DNA of 10,085 bases from Methanobacteriota archaeon (GTDB taxonomy: Archaea > Thermoplasmatota > Poseidoniia > Poseidoniales > Poseidoniaceae): NCBI GenBank assembly GCA_002689565.1, contig NZGQ01000071.1:1-10085 (forward strand), written 5' to 3'. This document shows positions 2,739 through 9,352 of this stretch, one piece after another. Each line of letters starts with the position of its first letter. Positions within the stretch are counted from its first letter, which is position 1. The notes under the pieces were generated by a model that was given only the letters and a program-made list of their open reading frames with translations, did not search any database and had not been told where the DNA came from. The translations under genes and the position numbers were made by a program.

Positions 2739-4301
2739 TCAAAGTGGAATATTTCCATGCTTCTTTGGTGGTGACCATTCTCTTTTTGACGATAAAATCC
2801 TCAGTGCACGAATTAACCGCAAGCGGCTTTCTTCAGGTTCGATGACATCGTCTAACCAACCGTTTCTAGCAGCGACATATGGATCACCAAACTTTGACTT
2901 GTATTCCTCAACAAGTTGTAGTCGAGTCTCCTCTTTCTTATCGTCATCAGCAGCAGCAATCTCTCTTCGATGAATGATGTTTACCGCACCTTCAGCACCC
3001 ATAACCGCCAGCTCTGCTGTCGGCCATGCAATATTATAATCGGATTGAAGGTGTTTACAACTCATTGCTAAATATGCACCGCCGTATGCTTTTCTCGTAA
3101 CCAAAGTCATCTTTGGAACGGTCGCTTCCGCATATGCGAACAACAATTTCGCTCCATGGCGAATAATTCCACCCCACTCTTGAACGACACCCGGCAGGAA
3201 ACCAGGTACGTCTTCGAAGGTCACGAGAGGGATGTTGAAGGCATCACAAGTTCTGATGAATCTTGCTGCCTTAATTGAAGCATCAATGTCCAAGCAACCT
3301 GCCAGTACTTTTGGCTGGTTAGCCACGATTCCAATGGTTTTCCCATCAAGTCTAGCAAATCCGATTACGATGTTCTCAGCATAAGAGTTGAACAACTCCA
3401 TGAATATGCCATCATCAACAATTTCTTCAATCACTTTTACCATGTCATATGGACGGTTTGGATTGTCAGGAACTAGTGCTTCCAAATCAGGATTCAATCT
3501 GGTAGGATCATCTGCAGTCGGCTCAACAGGTGGGCTTGATTGATTGTTATCAGGCAGGAATCCGAGGATATCTGCTGCTAATGCGCAAGCCTCTTCTTCA
3601 TCCTCTGCAATCAGACAAGCGATTCCAGAACGACTAGCATGAAGGCTTGCACCTCCTAGGCCTGCAGCATCTACTTCACCACTGATACACTCTGGTGTTT
3701 CGAGTGGAGATGACATGAATAATTGTCCGTGGTCGTTGCCAAGAATTGTGAAATCAGCCAGGCTTGCACCCAATGCAGAAACTCCCACTACGGGGCCAAG
3801 AACTAAAGAAATCATTGGGATTCTACCTGAGCACTGAACCAATCTGTCTAGTAATTCTCCAGTTCCCCCAAGTGAATTTATTCCATCTTGAGCTCTTTGT
3901 CCACCGCCGTCCCAAATTCCAACGATTGGAACTTTGGTTCGTTCTGCCATTTCAACGACCTTTGAGATTTTCTTGGCGTGCATTTCACCCATTGAACCAC
4001 CGTGGACTGAGAAATCCTGTGCGAAACAATAGATTCTCCTGCCATCGACTGTGCCGTGTCCACAAACAACGCCATCGCCTAATGTCTCGTGCATGAACAT
4101 GCCATGATCTGATGTTCTGTGAGTAAGAAATGTATCGATTTCAACGAAGGAATCTTCGTCTAGTAGGTTGCGGATTCTGTCTCTAGCAGTACCTCTGCCT
4201 GATGCACGAATACTCTCTTGTCGCTTGAGTCCACCACCCATGAGGATCTTCTCGCGACGGTACTTCAAGTCCTCAAGAGCCTCACTCGAATCCCTTGACA
4301 T
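2739..4301 (-). CDS. Biotin-dependent acyl-CoA carboxylase, carboxyltransferase (beta) subunit, PccB/MmdA family
   Basis: This 520-residue cytosolic subunit moves the carboxyl group from carboxybiotin to an acyl-CoA such as propionyl-CoA or acetyl-CoA. It would work with a biotin carboxylase and a biotin carrier protein that are not in the window. It has two crotonase-fold halves. The N-terminal half has DGGGQRAQDG and the loop GPVVGVSALGA (169-179). The C-terminal half has DVPGFLPG (364-371), QEWGGIIRHGAKLLFAYAEA, RKAYGGAY (403-410) and the family ending PPKKHGNIPL. Length matches the family (about 510-530). The ATG at 4301 is chosen because GGAGGT precedes it and the N-terminus then aligns with relatives; an ATG at 4373 would overlap gatD by 34 bases. 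It follows gatD by 38 bp. The acyl-CoA-side loop reads VGVSALGA where most relatives have AGGAVYSPA, so the substrate cannot be named, and a decarboxylase alpha subunit (MmdA) remains possible. Its stop abuts the stop of the opposing gene. Confidence 0.93.
   Translation of the reverse strand: MSRDSSEALEDLKYRREKILMGGGLKRQESIRASGRGTARDRIRNLLDEDSFVEIDTFLTHRTSDHGMFMHETLGDGVVCGHGTVDGRRIYCFAQDFSVHGGSMGEMHAKKISKVVEMAERTKVPIVGIWDGGGQRAQDGINSLGGTGELLDRLVQCSGRIPMISLVLGPVVGVSALGASLADFTILGNDHGQLFMSSPLETPECISGEVDAAGLGGASLHASRSGIACLIAEDEEEACALAADILGFLPDNNQSSPPVEPTADDPTRLNPDLEALVPDNPNRPYDMVKVIEEIVDDGIFMELFNSYAENIVIGFARLDGKTIGIVANQPKVLAGCLDIDASIKAARFIRTCDAFNIPLVTFEDVPGFLPGVVQEWGGIIRHGAKLLFAYAEATVPKMTLVTRKAYGGAYLAMSCKHLQSDYNIAWPTAELAVMGAEGAVNIIHRREIAAADDDKKEETRLQLVEEYKSKFGDPYVAARNGWLDDVIEPEESRLRLIRALRILSSKREWSPPKKHGNIPL
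2783..2787 (+). terminator. Possible oligo-T terminator for the + strand gene
   Basis: A T5 run lies about 45 bases past the surface-protein stop and inside the convergent carboxyltransferase gene. It is the first T-run of five or more after that stop. The evidence is weak and rests on position and composition only. Confidence 0.2.
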
Positions 4302-4305
4302 GTTT

Positions 4306-4311
4306 ACCTCC
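4306..4311 (-). promoter_or_regulatory. Shine-Dalgarno GGAGGT setting the carboxyltransferase start
   Basis: The - strand reads GGAGGT, then AAAC, then ATG (4301). A second GGAG sits 11 bases before the same ATG. Together they favour 4301 over the in-frame ATGs at 4331 and 4373, neither of which has such a site. Confidence 0.75.
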
Positions 4312-4339
4312 ACTCCTTTCCGGTTATTCATTAAAGCGG

Positions 4340-5653
4340 TTATGACATTAGAGAGGATTGATTCTCCCCACATAGATTTTCAGATAATATATCTAAGCCT
4401 TTTTCATTGGAAAGTGCCCAATGAATTTTTGCGAGTAATGCTTCAGGGGAACTGGTAGAACCATGGCCAAGTACACCGATGTCTTGCTGGTTTCTTCCCT
4501 TGGAATAAACGTTCAAATCAACTGGCCCATTGATACATTGGTTTGCTACAATTACTGGGATAGGTGAGTTCTCAATCACCTTTGCCAGTTTATCATTTTC
4601 TGGAGCATCCCCTGTTGGATTTTCAATTGGTAAATGACCTAGTCCTGTCCCATGAATGAGTATTGCAGAGTATCCCGAATTCTGTGCTGCTTCTAGTAAA
4701 TCAGCATGTAAGTGAGGCCCTGCTATGAATTGTGCAATTCGTATATCAGGGTCGTACTTCGTAGGATTAGAGACCTCTCTAGATTCTTGTATTGTAACTG
4801 GGGAATGAGTTAATCCCTCTCTAGAAATTGTGATTTCACTAATCCTTTCACCATTTACCATTTTGAAAGCATTCCGTCTTGTTGAATGCATTTTTCTTAC
4901 TCCAACACCAGGGCTTACCGCACAAACTCCGTCGCCAGATCCTGCATGCATTACCGTAACAGCAGCATCTCCATTCCCACTCACTTCTGGTCCGTTTGCT
5001 GCCCAATATACTGCACTCAACAGATTTTCAGTAGCATCGGATGAGGCACGGTCAGATGATCTCTGTGAGCCGGTGAACACAATCCTGCCGGCTGGCTTCC
5101 CTCCATTTCCTGCGAATGCAAATGAAAGTGCAGCAGCGCTAATGTGTAGCGTATCTGTACCATGTGTGATGATTACGCCAACAGATCCTGAATCGAAAGC
5201 CTCTTGACAAGCATCAATCATTTTATTCCAATGAATCGGCCTAATGTCATCAGACCACATATTACCGATTTTTATGGCATCAATATTTGCAATTTCCAGA
5301 ATCTCTGGTACGCTTGCTAACAATTCTTCAGGCTCGAATCGCGCAATTACTGCTCCTGTTGCGTAATCAACCTTTGATGCGATTGTTCCACCTGTATGAA
5401 TTATCGTAACCTTGGGCAATTCCTGATTTTGTTGAACACTTGAGATTGAAGCTAGTACCTGATCTGCGTCAGCGATTGATACCACCGATTCTACCATTGA
5501 GATAGGATGGCTTACATTGTAACCATTTGCAAGTTTGACAGTCAGATGTTCGGGTGCTGCACCTGGTAAGACTACGCCTTCATGAGTGGTGGTTCCAGCA
5601 GGTCCGCTAGTTGTAATTTTTACTCGCTCACCAATTGTCGGCATCTCAACCAT
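4340..5653 (-). CDS. gatD: Glutamyl-tRNA(Gln) amidotransferase subunit D (GatD)
   Basis: GatD is the glutaminase half of the archaeal GatDE complex. It frees ammonia from an amide donor, and GatE uses that ammonia to turn Glu-tRNA(Gln) into Gln-tRNA(Gln) in the cytosol. The 437 residues match the family length. Residues 5-60 form the small N-terminal beta domain (GERVKI, VKLANGYNV). The rest is a type I L-asparaginase-like domain with all four catalytic positions visible: T90 in HTGGTIAS, T166 and D167 in THGTDT, and K254 in VRKMHS. The GSQRSSDRASSDA segment also matches GatD. gatE is not next to it and is absent from the window. Two nearby Met codons could start it, residue 1 (5653) or residue 4 (5644); neither has a Shine-Dalgarno, and no in-frame start lies upstream. 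The carboxyltransferase gene follows after 38 bp, so they probably share a transcript. A plain L-asparaginase is less likely because of the N-terminal domain. Confidence 0.95.
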   Translation of the reverse strand: MVEMPTIGERVKITTSGPAGTTTHEGVVLPGAAPEHLTVKLANGYNVSHPISMVESVVSIADADQVLASISSVQQNQELPKVTIIHTGGTIASKVDYATGAVIARFEPEELLASVPEILEIANIDAIKIGNMWSDDIRPIHWNKMIDACQEAFDSGSVGVIITHGTDTLHISAAALSFAFAGNGGKPAGRIVFTGSQRSSDRASSDATENLLSAVYWAANGPEVSGNGDAAVTVMHAGSGDGVCAVSPGVGVRKMHSTRRNAFKMVNGERISEITISREGLTHSPVTIQESREVSNPTKYDPDIRIAQFIAGPHLHADLLEAAQNSGYSAILIHGTGLGHLPIENPTGDAPENDKLAKVIENSPIPVIVANQCINGPVDLNVYSKGRNQQDIGVLGHGSTSSPEALLAKIHWALSNEKGLDILSENLCGENQSSLMS

Positions 5654-5788: not shown

Positions 5789-6163
5789 TTATTCTTGACC
5801 TACTAACTTGTAGTCATCGGATAGTGGTGTAGCACCGGTTTCCATAAGAATGATCTTTCCATCTTTGAATCTCATAAAGGACATGACTGCCTCAGAGGTA
5901 GATCCGTTTGCGAAGTGAACTATTGAGTGTGCTACTCCAACTTCATCGTTCTCATATAGGATTCTTTCGTTTTCACCTTTTGGAGTACCCTCTCCACCAG
6001 CGAAACCTAGGATGTCAGACTTGCTCATTGTAATCCCACCTACGTGTGGATTGAATACGCAGTCATCGTGAATGATTTCTGCTAAAGCTTCTACATCTCC
6101 ATTTTCCCATGCTTCATTGTATGCTGCAATAATTGACATGTTTTCCGGATTAAGATGTGCCAT
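5789..6163 (-). CDS. SnoaL/NTF2-like protein of unknown function
   Basis: This 124-residue protein has the look of the NTF2 superfamily, SnoaL-like branch. It has an N-terminal helix pattern with AYNEAWENGDVEALAEIIHDDCVF (about residues 14-37), then PHVGG, and then alternating strands ending in MSFMRFKDGKIILMETG. That fold hosts small-molecule isomerases, cyclases and dehydratases as well as non-enzymatic binding proteins, so no reaction can be assigned. It has no signal peptide or membrane segment and is predicted cytosolic. The ATG at 6163 is taken as the start; the next Met (residue 9, 6139) would remove part of the first helix. No Shine-Dalgarno is present, which suggests a leaderless or AT-rich-leader transcript. 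It lies 78 bp after the iota-carbonic-anhydrase-like gene, which probably has the same fold, and 135 bp before gatD. Confidence 0.8.
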   Translation of the reverse strand: MAHLNPENMSIIAAYNEAWENGDVEALAEIIHDDCVFNPHVGGITMSKSDILGFAGGEGTPKGENERILYENDEVGVAHSIVHFANGSTSEAVMSFMRFKDGKIILMETGATPLSDDYKLVGQE

Positions 6164-6241: not shown

Positions 6242-6706
6242 TTAATCTGTTGTCGCAGGCATAGATGAATGATGTACTTGAATACGTAAATCCCCATTTT
6301 CATCTGAAATATATCCAAAGGTATACTCTGCTTTTACTTCATCTCCATTCGAATCTGTAAAGAAATAGTTGCCCATTGCGATAGCAGAATTTCCATCAAT
6401 TATGACATCTGAATTTTCAAATCGTACTTTAGTCCATCCTTTAATTGCAAAACCTTTGTCTTCAGGACACTCATTATTTGATGCTACGAAATAGGATAGA
6501 GCGCTCTCAAAGTTAGGTCTAAACTGTTCAATTGCAGCAAGGGTCGGCTTGAACAAAACAGTAGTCCTTCCGTATGCATAGAGGGTTTCTACATGATTTC
6601 TTGCAAGTTCAACATAGTCTCCACCGGAAGAATGTGCTGAAGCGATTGCTACGATTCCATTACCCCACGCCTGCTGTGCGAGATTGACATCTTCGATGGT
6701 TACCAT
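6242..6706 (-). CDS. COG4337 / iota-class carbonic anhydrase-like protein
   Basis: The 154-residue protein closely resembles the COG4337 family, which includes the iota-carbonic anhydrases first described from the diatom protein LCIP63 and from bacteria. These proteins have an NTF2/CaMKII-association-like fold, interconvert CO2 and bicarbonate, and in studied cases may work without a metal. Features shared with my recollection of the family are AQQAWGNGIVAI (10-21), LFKPT (51-55), QFRP (61-64), EDKGFAIKGWTKVRFEN (82-98), GNYFFTD (112-118), EYTFGY (127-132) and the near-terminal HHSS (145-148). The length matches a single domain. Many bacterial versions have a signal peptide; none is seen here, so the protein should act in the cytosol. 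The start at 6706 places AQQAWG at the usual distance from the N-terminus and has no Shine-Dalgarno. The family call is strong; catalytic activity is inferred. Older databases label such proteins SgcJ/EcaC-like or, wrongly, phosphoribosyl-AMP cyclohydrolase. Confidence 0.82.
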   Translation of the reverse strand: MVTIEDVNLAQQAWGNGIVAIASAHSSGGDYVELARNHVETLYAYGRTTVLFKPTLAAIEQFRPNFESALSYFVASNNECPEDKGFAIKGWTKVRFENSDVIIDGNSAIAMGNYFFTDSNGDEVKAEYTFGYISDENGDLRIQVHHSSMPATTD

Positions 6707-6817: not shown

Positions 6818-9352
6818 TCAAACAATTTCTGCCTCTAATATCTCATTTTCCGAATCTTCATTTGTTAAAACTAGACGTCCCGGTGAAATCCTCATTGAGT
6901 AACCAACTCCGAGGAGGGCCACTATCATCATCAGAGTCATGAAAGACATTGATAGAGGGTATTTTGAGTACATCTCTCCTAGGGATGAAAAGAAACCTTC
7001 CTCTGAGGATTTGCTACCAGTCTCTTTTGGTTTGATTAGAGCGACTATAGCGGCTTGGTCATAGACTAATCTCGTGAATGTGAGTTTACCATCATTTCCT
7101 GAATCGTATACATCTGATGGTAGAGCAGGGTCTAGGTCTGAGTAGAAATCAGGCCGTTGTTCGAATGCAATATTCACCGGTTCGCTGAGGTCCAAAGTAA
7201 GCAGTACATCTACAGTGTAAGGGATTCTTGATTCAAAGAATTCAGGATCCTCAAATACTCCAAGAAGAGTTATTGCTTGCCCAGATACATCGAAGTGAGC
7301 CCATTTCCCCCAAGAAGAACTGTCCACATCTAGGTCGTAGTACCATGTATCTGCAATCCTAATTCCCATTCCCTGTGCGTCATTTGATCCATCTTCGCCA
7401 AGGTCGATAGAAAGTTGGAGTTGACCTGCTTGTGCGGTTTCGAGTTCAAATTCTGAGGCAGCAAATGTTGCTTCCAGGCGTTCAGTTCCATTAGGAATCC
7501 AAACATAATGCGAATCTTCTGTGTAGTAGACTGCGCCATTTGCTCCATTATTGAAGTGGTTCCAATCACCCTTCCAAGAATGCTTTACTCTGTCTGTGTT
7601 GATAGGTATTGTAGCAACTCCCATCATCTCTTGGTAGATTTCGTATGCGTCCCATACATCGTATTCAGGATGGTCAACTATTCCGTCTCCATCCTGGTCT
7701 CTCATCAATTGTAGAGTCCTTGCAAGAGCTACTGCTGCATCGGTATCGGTTAGTCCATGCCCGACTCTCCAGTCATGGCATTCTCCAGTGGCGCTTCTGT
7801 AGCACTGTTCAGGAATGTCTGCACACGCATCTTCATCGTTACCTGCTTCACAAGAATTGGCCATTCCATCATACCTAGAAGTGAGTTCTAGGATTAATTC
7901 AAACTCATGAACTCTGCTGTAATTTCCACTATTCCAGTCATCATACTGTCCATAAGATGCTGTTCCATCTCCACCAACAAGACTGTCTCCGAAATCGTGG
8001 TCATCACGGTGATAATCTGCTACACCTAGGGAAGGAGCTGCGTTTAACACAAGTCCTGCAATGCCTCCAACGTGTGGTGTTGCCATCGATGTTCCTGAAA
8101 TTGACATGTAGTATAGGTCTCCTTGCAGCCTAGTTGATGCATCGATTGCAGTTCCTCTAGGTGCTGTTGCCCAAATGTCACGACCAGGTGCTCCAACATC
8201 TGGCCATGTGTGTTGCTGAGTCATGCAACCTCGTGATGAGAAGGAAGTAACTGCAGTTCCATCGTGAGTTAGTGCTGCGACTGAGACTGCAGAAGGAGTA
8301 TTTGCGTAAACATTGGTTCGCAAATCACCAGCACATTCTGCACCCGATCCACCTGAGTTTGAAGCAGCAAAGATAACAGCAACTCCATTATCGAAAGTCA
8401 ACATATCTGTTAATTGAGCAATCACTCCCTGCGGGTTGTAATCTCCATCAGTACCCCAAGAGTTTGAAACAACTCGGATATGATATGGGTTTTGACCAGG
8501 AGTCGAATGAGCATATGTCCATTCTAGACCCTGCTCAGCAGCGAAAATCGAAGCACCATCACCAGTTCCAAGGGCGACTAATTGTCCACCTTTGGCAACT
8601 CCAGCTCTGCGTCCACTTGATGCATCACCGTTTCCAGCAATGGTACCACCAACGTGTGTACCGTGTCCCGATGAAGTGTCTGAATTTCTTGTCTCAGTCC
8701 ATCCAACACCATCGAATTTAGCAGAGTAAATTGCTTTGTCACCAGTCCAAGGTTCTAGGTAATCGTAGTCAGGATGCCCTGCATCGACCCCTGTGTCCAA
8801 ATCGACAATAGCAGTGCCATCTCCGTCCCACTCTGTGAATGATTGGTCAATTTCATACTCTACATCTCCTGAAGGAGAAATAATCGCTCTACTCCAAGAG
8901 TCGGTCGCTGTTACAACATGAGTTGTTTCATGCATCATTATTCCTGCATCTGTTGTCGGCTCACCGCCCCATTCAGATGGTAGATAGAAGAATTCCAGAG
9001 GTTTATCCAATTCCAAGTACTCTACTCTTTCCCAATTGGAAAGTGTCCTAATCTCTCCAATTGTTCCTTCGACAAGTCCACCGTCTACAAGCGGAGCACG
9101 ACCTAGTAATTCTAAGCCTAAGGTCTCGAAGTAAGATTCATCACTTTCTGTTACAGGTGAATTGAGTTGGAAAATCACTGGAATCACCTTCGAATTCTCG
9201 AAGTTCTCTAATTCTTCAATGAGATCATCATTCATCTTGGTGAAGTCCCCAAGCGGGTTAACGTCATCCGCAAGTGGGGATGCTACTGCTGTTAGCATTA
9301 GCAATTGAATGAACATCGCAGCCGAAACCACGTATCGTCGTGATGTTGCCAT
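6818..9352 (-). CDS. Secreted, membrane-anchored subtilisin-like serine protease (peptidase family S8)
   Basis: The 844-residue endopeptidase is exported and tethered with its catalytic domain outside the cell. Residues 1-24 are a signal peptide, and 55-122 look like an inhibitor-I9-type propeptide. All S8 catalytic residues are present: D186 (DTGVD), H230 (GHGTHVGG), the oxyanion N332 (AASNSGG) and S422 (SGTSMATPHV). Between the Ser box and the last helix of the fold (GHGLTDTDAAVALA, 531-544) is an insertion of about 80 residues with C501, C510, C517 and C525, probably forming disulfides. A canonical 12-residue EF-hand-type loop follows at 552-563 (D552, D554, D556, G557, D560, E563). Residues 600-770 form a beta-rich domain related to pre-peptidase C-terminal-type modules. 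A transmembrane helix (about 799-820) and an acidic cytosolic tail end the protein. No Shine-Dalgarno precedes the ATG, but a TTATAA lies 25-30 bases upstream, consistent with a leaderless mRNA. It likely feeds on external protein or processes surface proteins. Confidence 0.95.
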   Translation of the reverse strand: MATSRRYVVSAAMFIQLLMLTAVASPLADDVNPLGDFTKMNDDLIEELENFENSKVIPVIFQLNSPVTESDESYFETLGLELLGRAPLVDGGLVEGTIGEIRTLSNWERVEYLELDKPLEFFYLPSEWGGEPTTDAGIMMHETTHVVTATDSWSRAIISPSGDVEYEIDQSFTEWDGDGTAIVDLDTGVDAGHPDYDYLEPWTGDKAIYSAKFDGVGWTETRNSDTSSGHGTHVGGTIAGNGDASSGRRAGVAKGGQLVALGTGDGASIFAAEQGLEWTYAHSTPGQNPYHIRVVSNSWGTDGDYNPQGVIAQLTDMLTFDNGVAVIFAASNSGGSGAECAGDLRTNVYANTPSAVSVAALTHDGTAVTSFSSRGCMTQQHTWPDVGAPGRDIWATAPRGTAIDASTRLQGDLYYMSISGTSMATPHVGGIAGLVLNAAPSLGVADYHRDDHDFGDSLVGGDGTASYGQYDDWNSGNYSRVHEFELILELTSRYDGMANSCEAGNDEDACADIPEQCYRSATGECHDWRVGHGLTDTDAAVALARTLQLMRDQDGDGIVDHPEYDVWDAYEIYQEMMGVATIPINTDRVKHSWKGDWNHFNNGANGAVYYTEDSHYVWIPNGTERLEATFAASEFELETAQAGQLQLSIDLGEDGSNDAQGMGIRIADTWYYDLDVDSSSWGKWAHFDVSGQAITLLGVFEDPEFFESRIPYTVDVLLTLDLSEPVNIAFEQRPDFYSDLDPALPSDVYDSGNDGKLTFTRLVYDQAAIVALIKPKETGSKSSEEGFFSSLGEMYSKYPLSMSFMTLMMIVALLGVGYSMRISPGRLVLTNEDSENEILEAEIV

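Follow-up and report, generated by a model that had tools for sequence, protein, structure and literature searches.

The stretch of DNA analysed here (the window) comprises 10,085 nucleotides of contig NZGQ01000071.1, assigned to the archaeal family Poseidoniaceae. One of its genes very probably encodes, judged from sequence and predicted fold, a cytosolic metal-independent carbonic anhydrase (CA) of the iota class in a Marine Group II (MGII) archaeon, where it would fill the role of the zinc-dependent beta-CA of related species. An earlier note, made from the letters of the sequence, had placed such a gene at 6242..6706 on the basis of a string of COG4337 motifs. The exact open reading frame (ORF) was found, and every quoted motif (AQQAWG, LFKPT, EDKGF, WTKVRFEN, GNYFFTD, EYTFGY and HHSS) is present in its translation. 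The gene and its neighbours are:

6242..6706, minus strand: predicted iota-class (COG4337-type) CA gene, 154 amino acids (aa), ATG start, without signal peptide (profile, structure and residue matches)
6818..9352, minus strand: subtilase (PF00082), upstream flank of the CA slot; also flanks beta-CA in loci L264, L272 and L277, with reversed orientation
5789..6163, minus strand: SnoaL-like NTF2-fold protein without the HHSS motif (sequence and neighbourhood comparison)
4340..5653, minus strand: GatD, on the downstream side of the slot; it served to place the window (profile match, tree)
2739..4373, minus strand: acyl-CoA carboxylase-type carboxyltransferase (PF01039), conserved neighbour beyond GatD (Pfam, locus comparison)

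Family assignment

The NCBIfam model NF047901, 'metal-independent carbonic anhydrase', matched residues 3-152 of the window protein (E = 3.7e-38, 131 bits). A point against the assignment is that this score, reached over model positions 52-204 of 205, is far below the curated 350-bit naming cut-off, so that the equivalog name does not apply. By its sequence the protein belongs to the wider COG4337 iota-CA domain family and not to the NF047901 equivalog. In a PDB search the two solved metal-free iota-CAs were the only strong matches: 7c5x from Bigelowiella (E = 1.6e-109 across its three domains, window residues 2-151 aligned) and 7c5v from Anabaena (E = 4e-32, residues 2-150), with 3h51 marginal (0.011). 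The match to characterised COG4337 members is thus significant over the full domain of about 160 aa, and the predicted model has the cone-shaped alpha+beta barrel fold. Assignment to the COG4875 type (LCIP63/BteCA) was considered and rejected, as 7c5x and 7c5v were far ahead of 3h51 in both sequence and fold comparison; 3h51 is taken as a COG4875-like structure following PMC8132391.

No family in the local Pfam copy, SnoaL, DUF4440 and CaMKII-AD included, matched the window protein above cut-off, and only a sub-threshold CSD match was seen. The database held 4349 homologues at E ≤ 0.001; homologues of the protein, one of them 99 % identical, bear the newer Pfam family PF27546. Nothing placed the protein in a different NTF2 subfamily, 7c5x and 7c5v being its closest structures and no other NTF2 family of the local Pfam copy matching it above cut-off. 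The COG4337-type assignment proposed in the earlier note was therefore favoured by the family, active-site and fold comparisons alike, with a score that stays below the NCBIfam naming cut-off.

Among the database homologues, P0060, P0137 and P0195 are named 'phosphoribosyl-AMP cyclohydrolase', apparently a propagated misannotation. Entries P0171, P0178, P0180 and P0195 are two-domain iota-CAs with lipoprotein-like N-termini, from Bacillota with names suggesting alkaliphiles, whereas prokaryotic COG4337 genes have been described in print as single-domain.

Active site and proposed function

Residue equivalents were obtained from the alignment to the PDB iota-CA structure, read against the PMC8132391 numbering of Anabaena all2909, and conservation was counted over 60 aligned rows. 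The codons concerned are:

6542..6544, minus strand: Thr55, equivalent to catalytic Thr106 of all2909; T in 60/60 rows
6491..6493, minus strand: Tyr72, equivalent to catalytic Tyr124; Y in 60/60 rows
6449..6451, minus strand: Phe86, equivalent to Phe138 of the proposed CO2 pocket; F in 60/60 rows
6272..6274, minus strand: His145, equivalent to His197, the first His of HHSS; H in 58/60 rows, Q in 2 bacterial rows
6266..6268, minus strand: Ser147, equivalent to Ser199; S in 60/60 rows

The window protein has the catalytic Thr, Tyr, His and Ser together with the HHSS motif. The loss of active-site residues, which the earlier note had considered, was not observed, as the Thr, Tyr, Phe, His and Ser equivalents are all kept. 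In the bacterial homologues L054, L066 and L067, two of which are among the aligned rows, the motif is QHSS, with Gln at the His197 position.

The mechanism would be the one put forward in PMC8132391 for the COG4337 enzymes of Anabaena and Bigelowiella. Thr55 and Tyr72, helped by Ser147 and with His145 also needed, would activate water in the barrel, and the activated water would attack CO2 near Phe86 to give bicarbonate. The bicarbonate may be supplied to carboxylating enzymes, and internal CO2 and pH may be balanced in this way. The earlier note had suggested internal exchange of CO2 and bicarbonate. Against this stands the description, in PMC8132391, of assayed COG4337 enzymes without obvious bicarbonate dehydration, so the exchange may be effectively one-way.

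What the analysis shows is the sequence, the predicted fold, the residues and the genomic alternation described below; that the protein hydrates CO2 without a metal, in the cytosol, is inferred. It could instead be an NTF2-fold descendant of iota-CA that has kept the fold for another job, such as another hydratase activity or ligand binding. Proteins with the NTF2 fold serve very different functions, isomerases, cyclases and hydrolases being among the fold matches, and no assayed archaeal member of the family is known. However, the residues found important by mutation in two enzymes are unchanged in all 40 MGII loci, and iota-CA and beta-CA alternate at shared loci, which supports a CA function. 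We consider such a change of function quite unlikely.

Location in the cell

The ORF has no start codon earlier than the one used, between it and the preceding stop, and the AQQAWG motif follows as early as residue 10. An in-frame stop lies at most five codons upstream of the start in 15 of the 40 MGII orthologue loci. These observations support the signal-peptide-free form proposed in the earlier note. A crude hydropathy score gave 1.58 for the window protein, 0.42 to 2.04 for the MGII loci and 1.79 to 2.77 for six signal-bearing bacterial controls, the ranges overlapping. As judged by eye, the cyanobacterial and several proteobacterial relatives have signal-peptide-like starts, while several marine Bacteroidota loci start directly at the domain. 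A cytosolic form is therefore not unique to archaea. The predicted archaeal form does differ from the statement in PMC8132391 that prokaryotic COG4337 members are predicted to bear a signal peptide.

Host and origin

The GatD of the window passes both GatD cut-offs. The block of iota-CA, SnoaL-like gene, GatD and carboxyltransferase recurs in L001-L004 and L010, five contigs whose names assign them to Euryarchaeota, Poseidoniales or Poseidoniaceae. Both results confirm the archaeal host, encoding GatD, that the earlier note had assumed. In the domain tree the archaeal sequences form one clade of 40 rows (the window and 39 loci, L022 being left aside) in a total of 145 (SH-aLRT, the Shimodaira-Hasegawa-like approximate likelihood ratio test, 95). 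In a smaller, more careful domain tree they make up 18 of 74 rows, with support 100/96. Nearest to it stands a clade of multidomain proteins. Most of these, Prorocentrum among them, come from catalogues of marine eukaryotes and from metagenomes, and a few are from marine bacteria. Calling them 'eukaryotic' rests on the multidomain layout and on source labels such as 'merc'.

Contamination of archaeal assemblies with a gene of bacterial or algal origin was considered, since outside the archaea the closest relatives come from algae and marine bacteria. The single archaeal clade, and the position of iota-CA beside GatD and other shared genes both in the window and on the five contigs with archaeal names, speak against it; conserved synteny refutes this explanation, which we regard as practically dismissed. 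L022, on a contig filed under Gammaproteobacteria MAG (metagenome-assembled genome) RS465, has an MGII-like iota-CA locus with MGII neighbours and is probably a mis-binned archaeal contig.

The union of the archaeal clade with the algal and marine-bacterial clade had support 99/98 in the smaller tree. Probably there was one acquisition, common to the archaea, the algae and the marine bacteria, which may have run in either direction. The earlier note had raised transfer from bacteria; the archaeal clade does stand beside a mixed algal and marine-bacterial clade, but a bacterial donor was not shown. No match to the iota-CA gene was found among 50,697 phage records, in which a phage origin was tested.

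Distribution and mutual exclusion with beta-CA

The 292 genomes searched belong to the same order as G001, from which L003 comes; the positions of the iota matches in G040 and G028 equal those of Poseidonia L009 and Thalassarchaeum L026. Iota-CA was found in 94 of the genomes, three times as fragments at contig ends, a count not corrected for completeness. Beta-CA (PF00484) matched 31 genomes, 30 of them above cut-off, and no genome (0/292) had both. The match in G187 was below cut-off and without the CMD[SC]R and HTxC motifs, which we take to be the zinc-ligand motifs of beta-CA, and because these were missing it was treated as false and dropped. Both motifs were present in 13 of the 14 short beta regions translated (the exception being G187) and in all 20 longer ones; in L272 and L278 the beta-CA has CMDSRV, not CMDSRI.

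With 30 beta genomes about 9.7 shared genomes would be expected, and zero has p 4e-6 if genomes are independent, which they are not. Kinship was taken into account with a tree of EF-2, a marker found in 253 of the 292 genomes at E ≤ 1e-100, from which the 150 genomes with the best-scoring EF-2 were used (47 iota, 13 beta, 90 neither). On this tree a model of mutual dependence was better (likelihood ratio (LR) 13.9, 4 degrees of freedom, p 0.0076). One clade of 56 genomes contained 29 with iota-CA, 12 with beta-CA, 15 with neither and none with both. A set of 100 genomes (all 47 iota rows, the 14 beta rows with listed coordinates, G187 included, and 39 of 89 neither) gave LR 22.2 and p 0.0002. 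Because the thinning in this set favours exclusion, the full 150-genome result is the one used here.

Several observations weigh against the proposed reading. Allowing for kinship weakens the mutual exclusion: an independent-pairs test, on a tree still containing G187 and two misframed rows, was not significant, with too few pairs and a median p of 0.125. Furthermore, 168 of the 292 genomes show neither gene. Some of this absence is missing data, but G009 has neither despite a 2.06-Mb contig, so that a CA of the iota or beta kind is not obligatory.

Other CA classes were also considered. Alpha-CA was found in none of the 292 genomes. The PaaY profile (gamma-CA) matched 181 of them weakly, the best with 33 bits against a cut-off of 319.6. 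Six matches of about 160 aa that were translated carry EVWxGxPA near the end, a pattern presumably of hexapeptide acetyltransferases, hence they were not counted as gamma-CA and a third alternative of this kind was rejected; there may be a divergent gamma-CA among the PaaY matches beyond those six.

Shared chromosomal slots

From the 30 beta genomes, 20 beta regions, each some 7 to 12 kb long, were compared with the window and 40 iota loci; the flanking genes at sites A and D were named by reading of the sequences. Site A lies between a beta-propeller-like gene and a gene for a membrane protein of about 295 aa, followed by HflX-like and exonuclease III-like genes. Nine loci have iota-CA there and ten have beta-CA, in the same orientation and with similar spacing, except that in L265 the downstream gene is 579 bp away. 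Of the two flanks of site A a further beta locus, L271, has just the upstream one. The window belongs to site B, which lies ahead of GatD and holds iota-CA in 6 loci including the window and beta-CA in 3. Site C, adjoining a putative lipoprotein gene at its downstream end, holds iota-CA in 4 and beta-CA in 3. Altogether 17 of the 20 beta regions, L271 included, are at places that hold iota-CA in relatives; the remaining 3, like 22 of the 41 iota loci, are elsewhere or without an assigned site.

Both flanks of site A were found in 14 of the 15 neither-gene genomes of the 56-genome clade, and there they are directly adjacent (about -18 to 182 bp from one match end to the other). The corresponding distance is 543 bp in one genome with iota-CA and 596 bp in one with beta-CA. 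Site A therefore has three states: empty, occupied by zinc beta-CA, or occupied by metal-free iota-CA. In the midpoint-rooted GatD tree the window falls within a clade of iota-bearing rows (93/91), and the beta-bearing G143, G032 and G021 branch outside it, inner support being moderate. Because of this position, the midpoint-rooted tree, at its moderate support, is most simply read as replacement of an older beta-CA by iota-CA in the window lineage.

Some details do not fit a simple exchange in place. The subtilase at site B is common to the window and three beta loci, but it is flipped in the beta loci, and in the other five iota loci at this site (L001-L004 and L010) a gene for a 737-aa membrane protein takes its place. 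At site C the iota-CA and beta-CA are oppositely oriented relative to the common neighbour. These sites might merely accept foreign genes, beta-CA and iota-CA having arrived independently and not as functional equivalents. The differing orientation at site C and the moderate exclusion statistic after correction for kinship are in line with this, as is the occurrence of iota-CA elsewhere: in further unassigned loci and at site D, beside an amidohydrolase/M20-like peptidase gene, in L016, L019, L022, L025, L026, L029 and L033. No beta-CA was at site D among the 20 beta regions. On the other hand, either kind of CA is found at each of the two sites and at the third junction, and no genome holds both, while flanks within about 180 bp in 14 of the 15 neither-gene genomes leave no room at site A for a gene of ordinary size. 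Independent arrival of unrelated functions thus appears unlikely. We lean, with some reserve, towards metal-free iota-CA and zinc beta-CA being exchangeable occupants of single-gene slots in MGII, at two loci and a third junction, swapped several times and with iota displacing beta in the window lineage. This would be an in-place non-homologous replacement, making the CA of the cell independent of zinc in surface seawater.

Neighbouring genes

The SnoaL-like gene accompanies iota-CA in all six site B loci, and in none of the three beta loci does it lie between beta-CA and GatD. Besides the window it adjoins iota-CA in 7 of the 40 MGII loci, with 78-92 % identity to the window copy, being colinear in L001-L004 and L010 and divergent in L013 and L021. 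It possibly travels or works with iota-CA. At 297-2738 on the plus strand the window encodes a secreted-looking protein of 813 aa with Big_9/tandem-95 repeats and a C-terminal membrane segment, kept at site B of related contigs; its N-terminus reads as alpha/beta-hydrolase-like.

Relation to known enzymes and significance

The window protein is 40 % identical in structural alignment to all2909 of Anabaena sp. PCC 7120 (PDB 7c5v/7c5w), a metal-free COG4337 iota-CA in which Lys180 corresponds to Tyr128 of the window protein. Unlike the prokaryotic COG4337 proteins for which a signal peptide is predicted (PMC8132391), the archaeal protein has none. Bn86287 of Bigelowiella natans (PDB 7c5x/7c5y), also a metal-free COG4337 iota-CA, is an organelle-targeted algal protein of three domains, whereas the archaeal one has a single domain and no targeting sequence. 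The archaeal protein shares the NTF2-like fold and HHSS with two published iota-CAs of the COG4875 type, LCIP63 (Thalassiosira pseudonana) and BteCA (Burkholderia territorii). The beta-CA (PF00484) of other Poseidoniales occupies the same slots, presumably in the same role, but is of an unrelated family, with the CMD[SC]R and HTxC motifs.

The earlier note had presented the gene as extending the class to archaea. In this it was anticipated: Hirakawa 2021 (PMC8132391) mentions COG4337 BLAST hits in 'several Archaea', and Jensen 2019 (PMC6776030) archaeal homologues of LCIP63, of the sister COG4875 type, Thaumarchaeota included. A 2026 CA survey (PMC13098186) covers the alpha, beta and gamma classes, and PMC8425729 is further prior work. 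Among the titles listed in searches of the open-licence PMC literature, none dealt with iota-CA in MGII or with its alternation with beta-CA. The window protein adds a new cytosolic member, from an archaeon, to an enzyme class already known; what surprises is its alternation in place with zinc beta-CA, which the earlier note does not mention.

The comparison also exposes wrong database names, some iota-CA homologues being called 'phosphoribosyl-AMP cyclohydrolase'. To our knowledge it provides the first genomic-context evidence for archaeal iota-CA homologues working as carbonic anhydrases. If the proposed exchange is true, archaea that abstracts describe as abundant in the surface ocean would have repeatedly exchanged a zinc and a metal-free enzyme, at fixed slots, for a basic reaction of carbon metabolism. 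The in-place alternation makes the zinc-sparing idea testable: it would be a natural experiment on zinc scarcity selecting metal-free catalysts, in which the occurrence of each type could be compared with dissolved zinc in ocean metagenomes.
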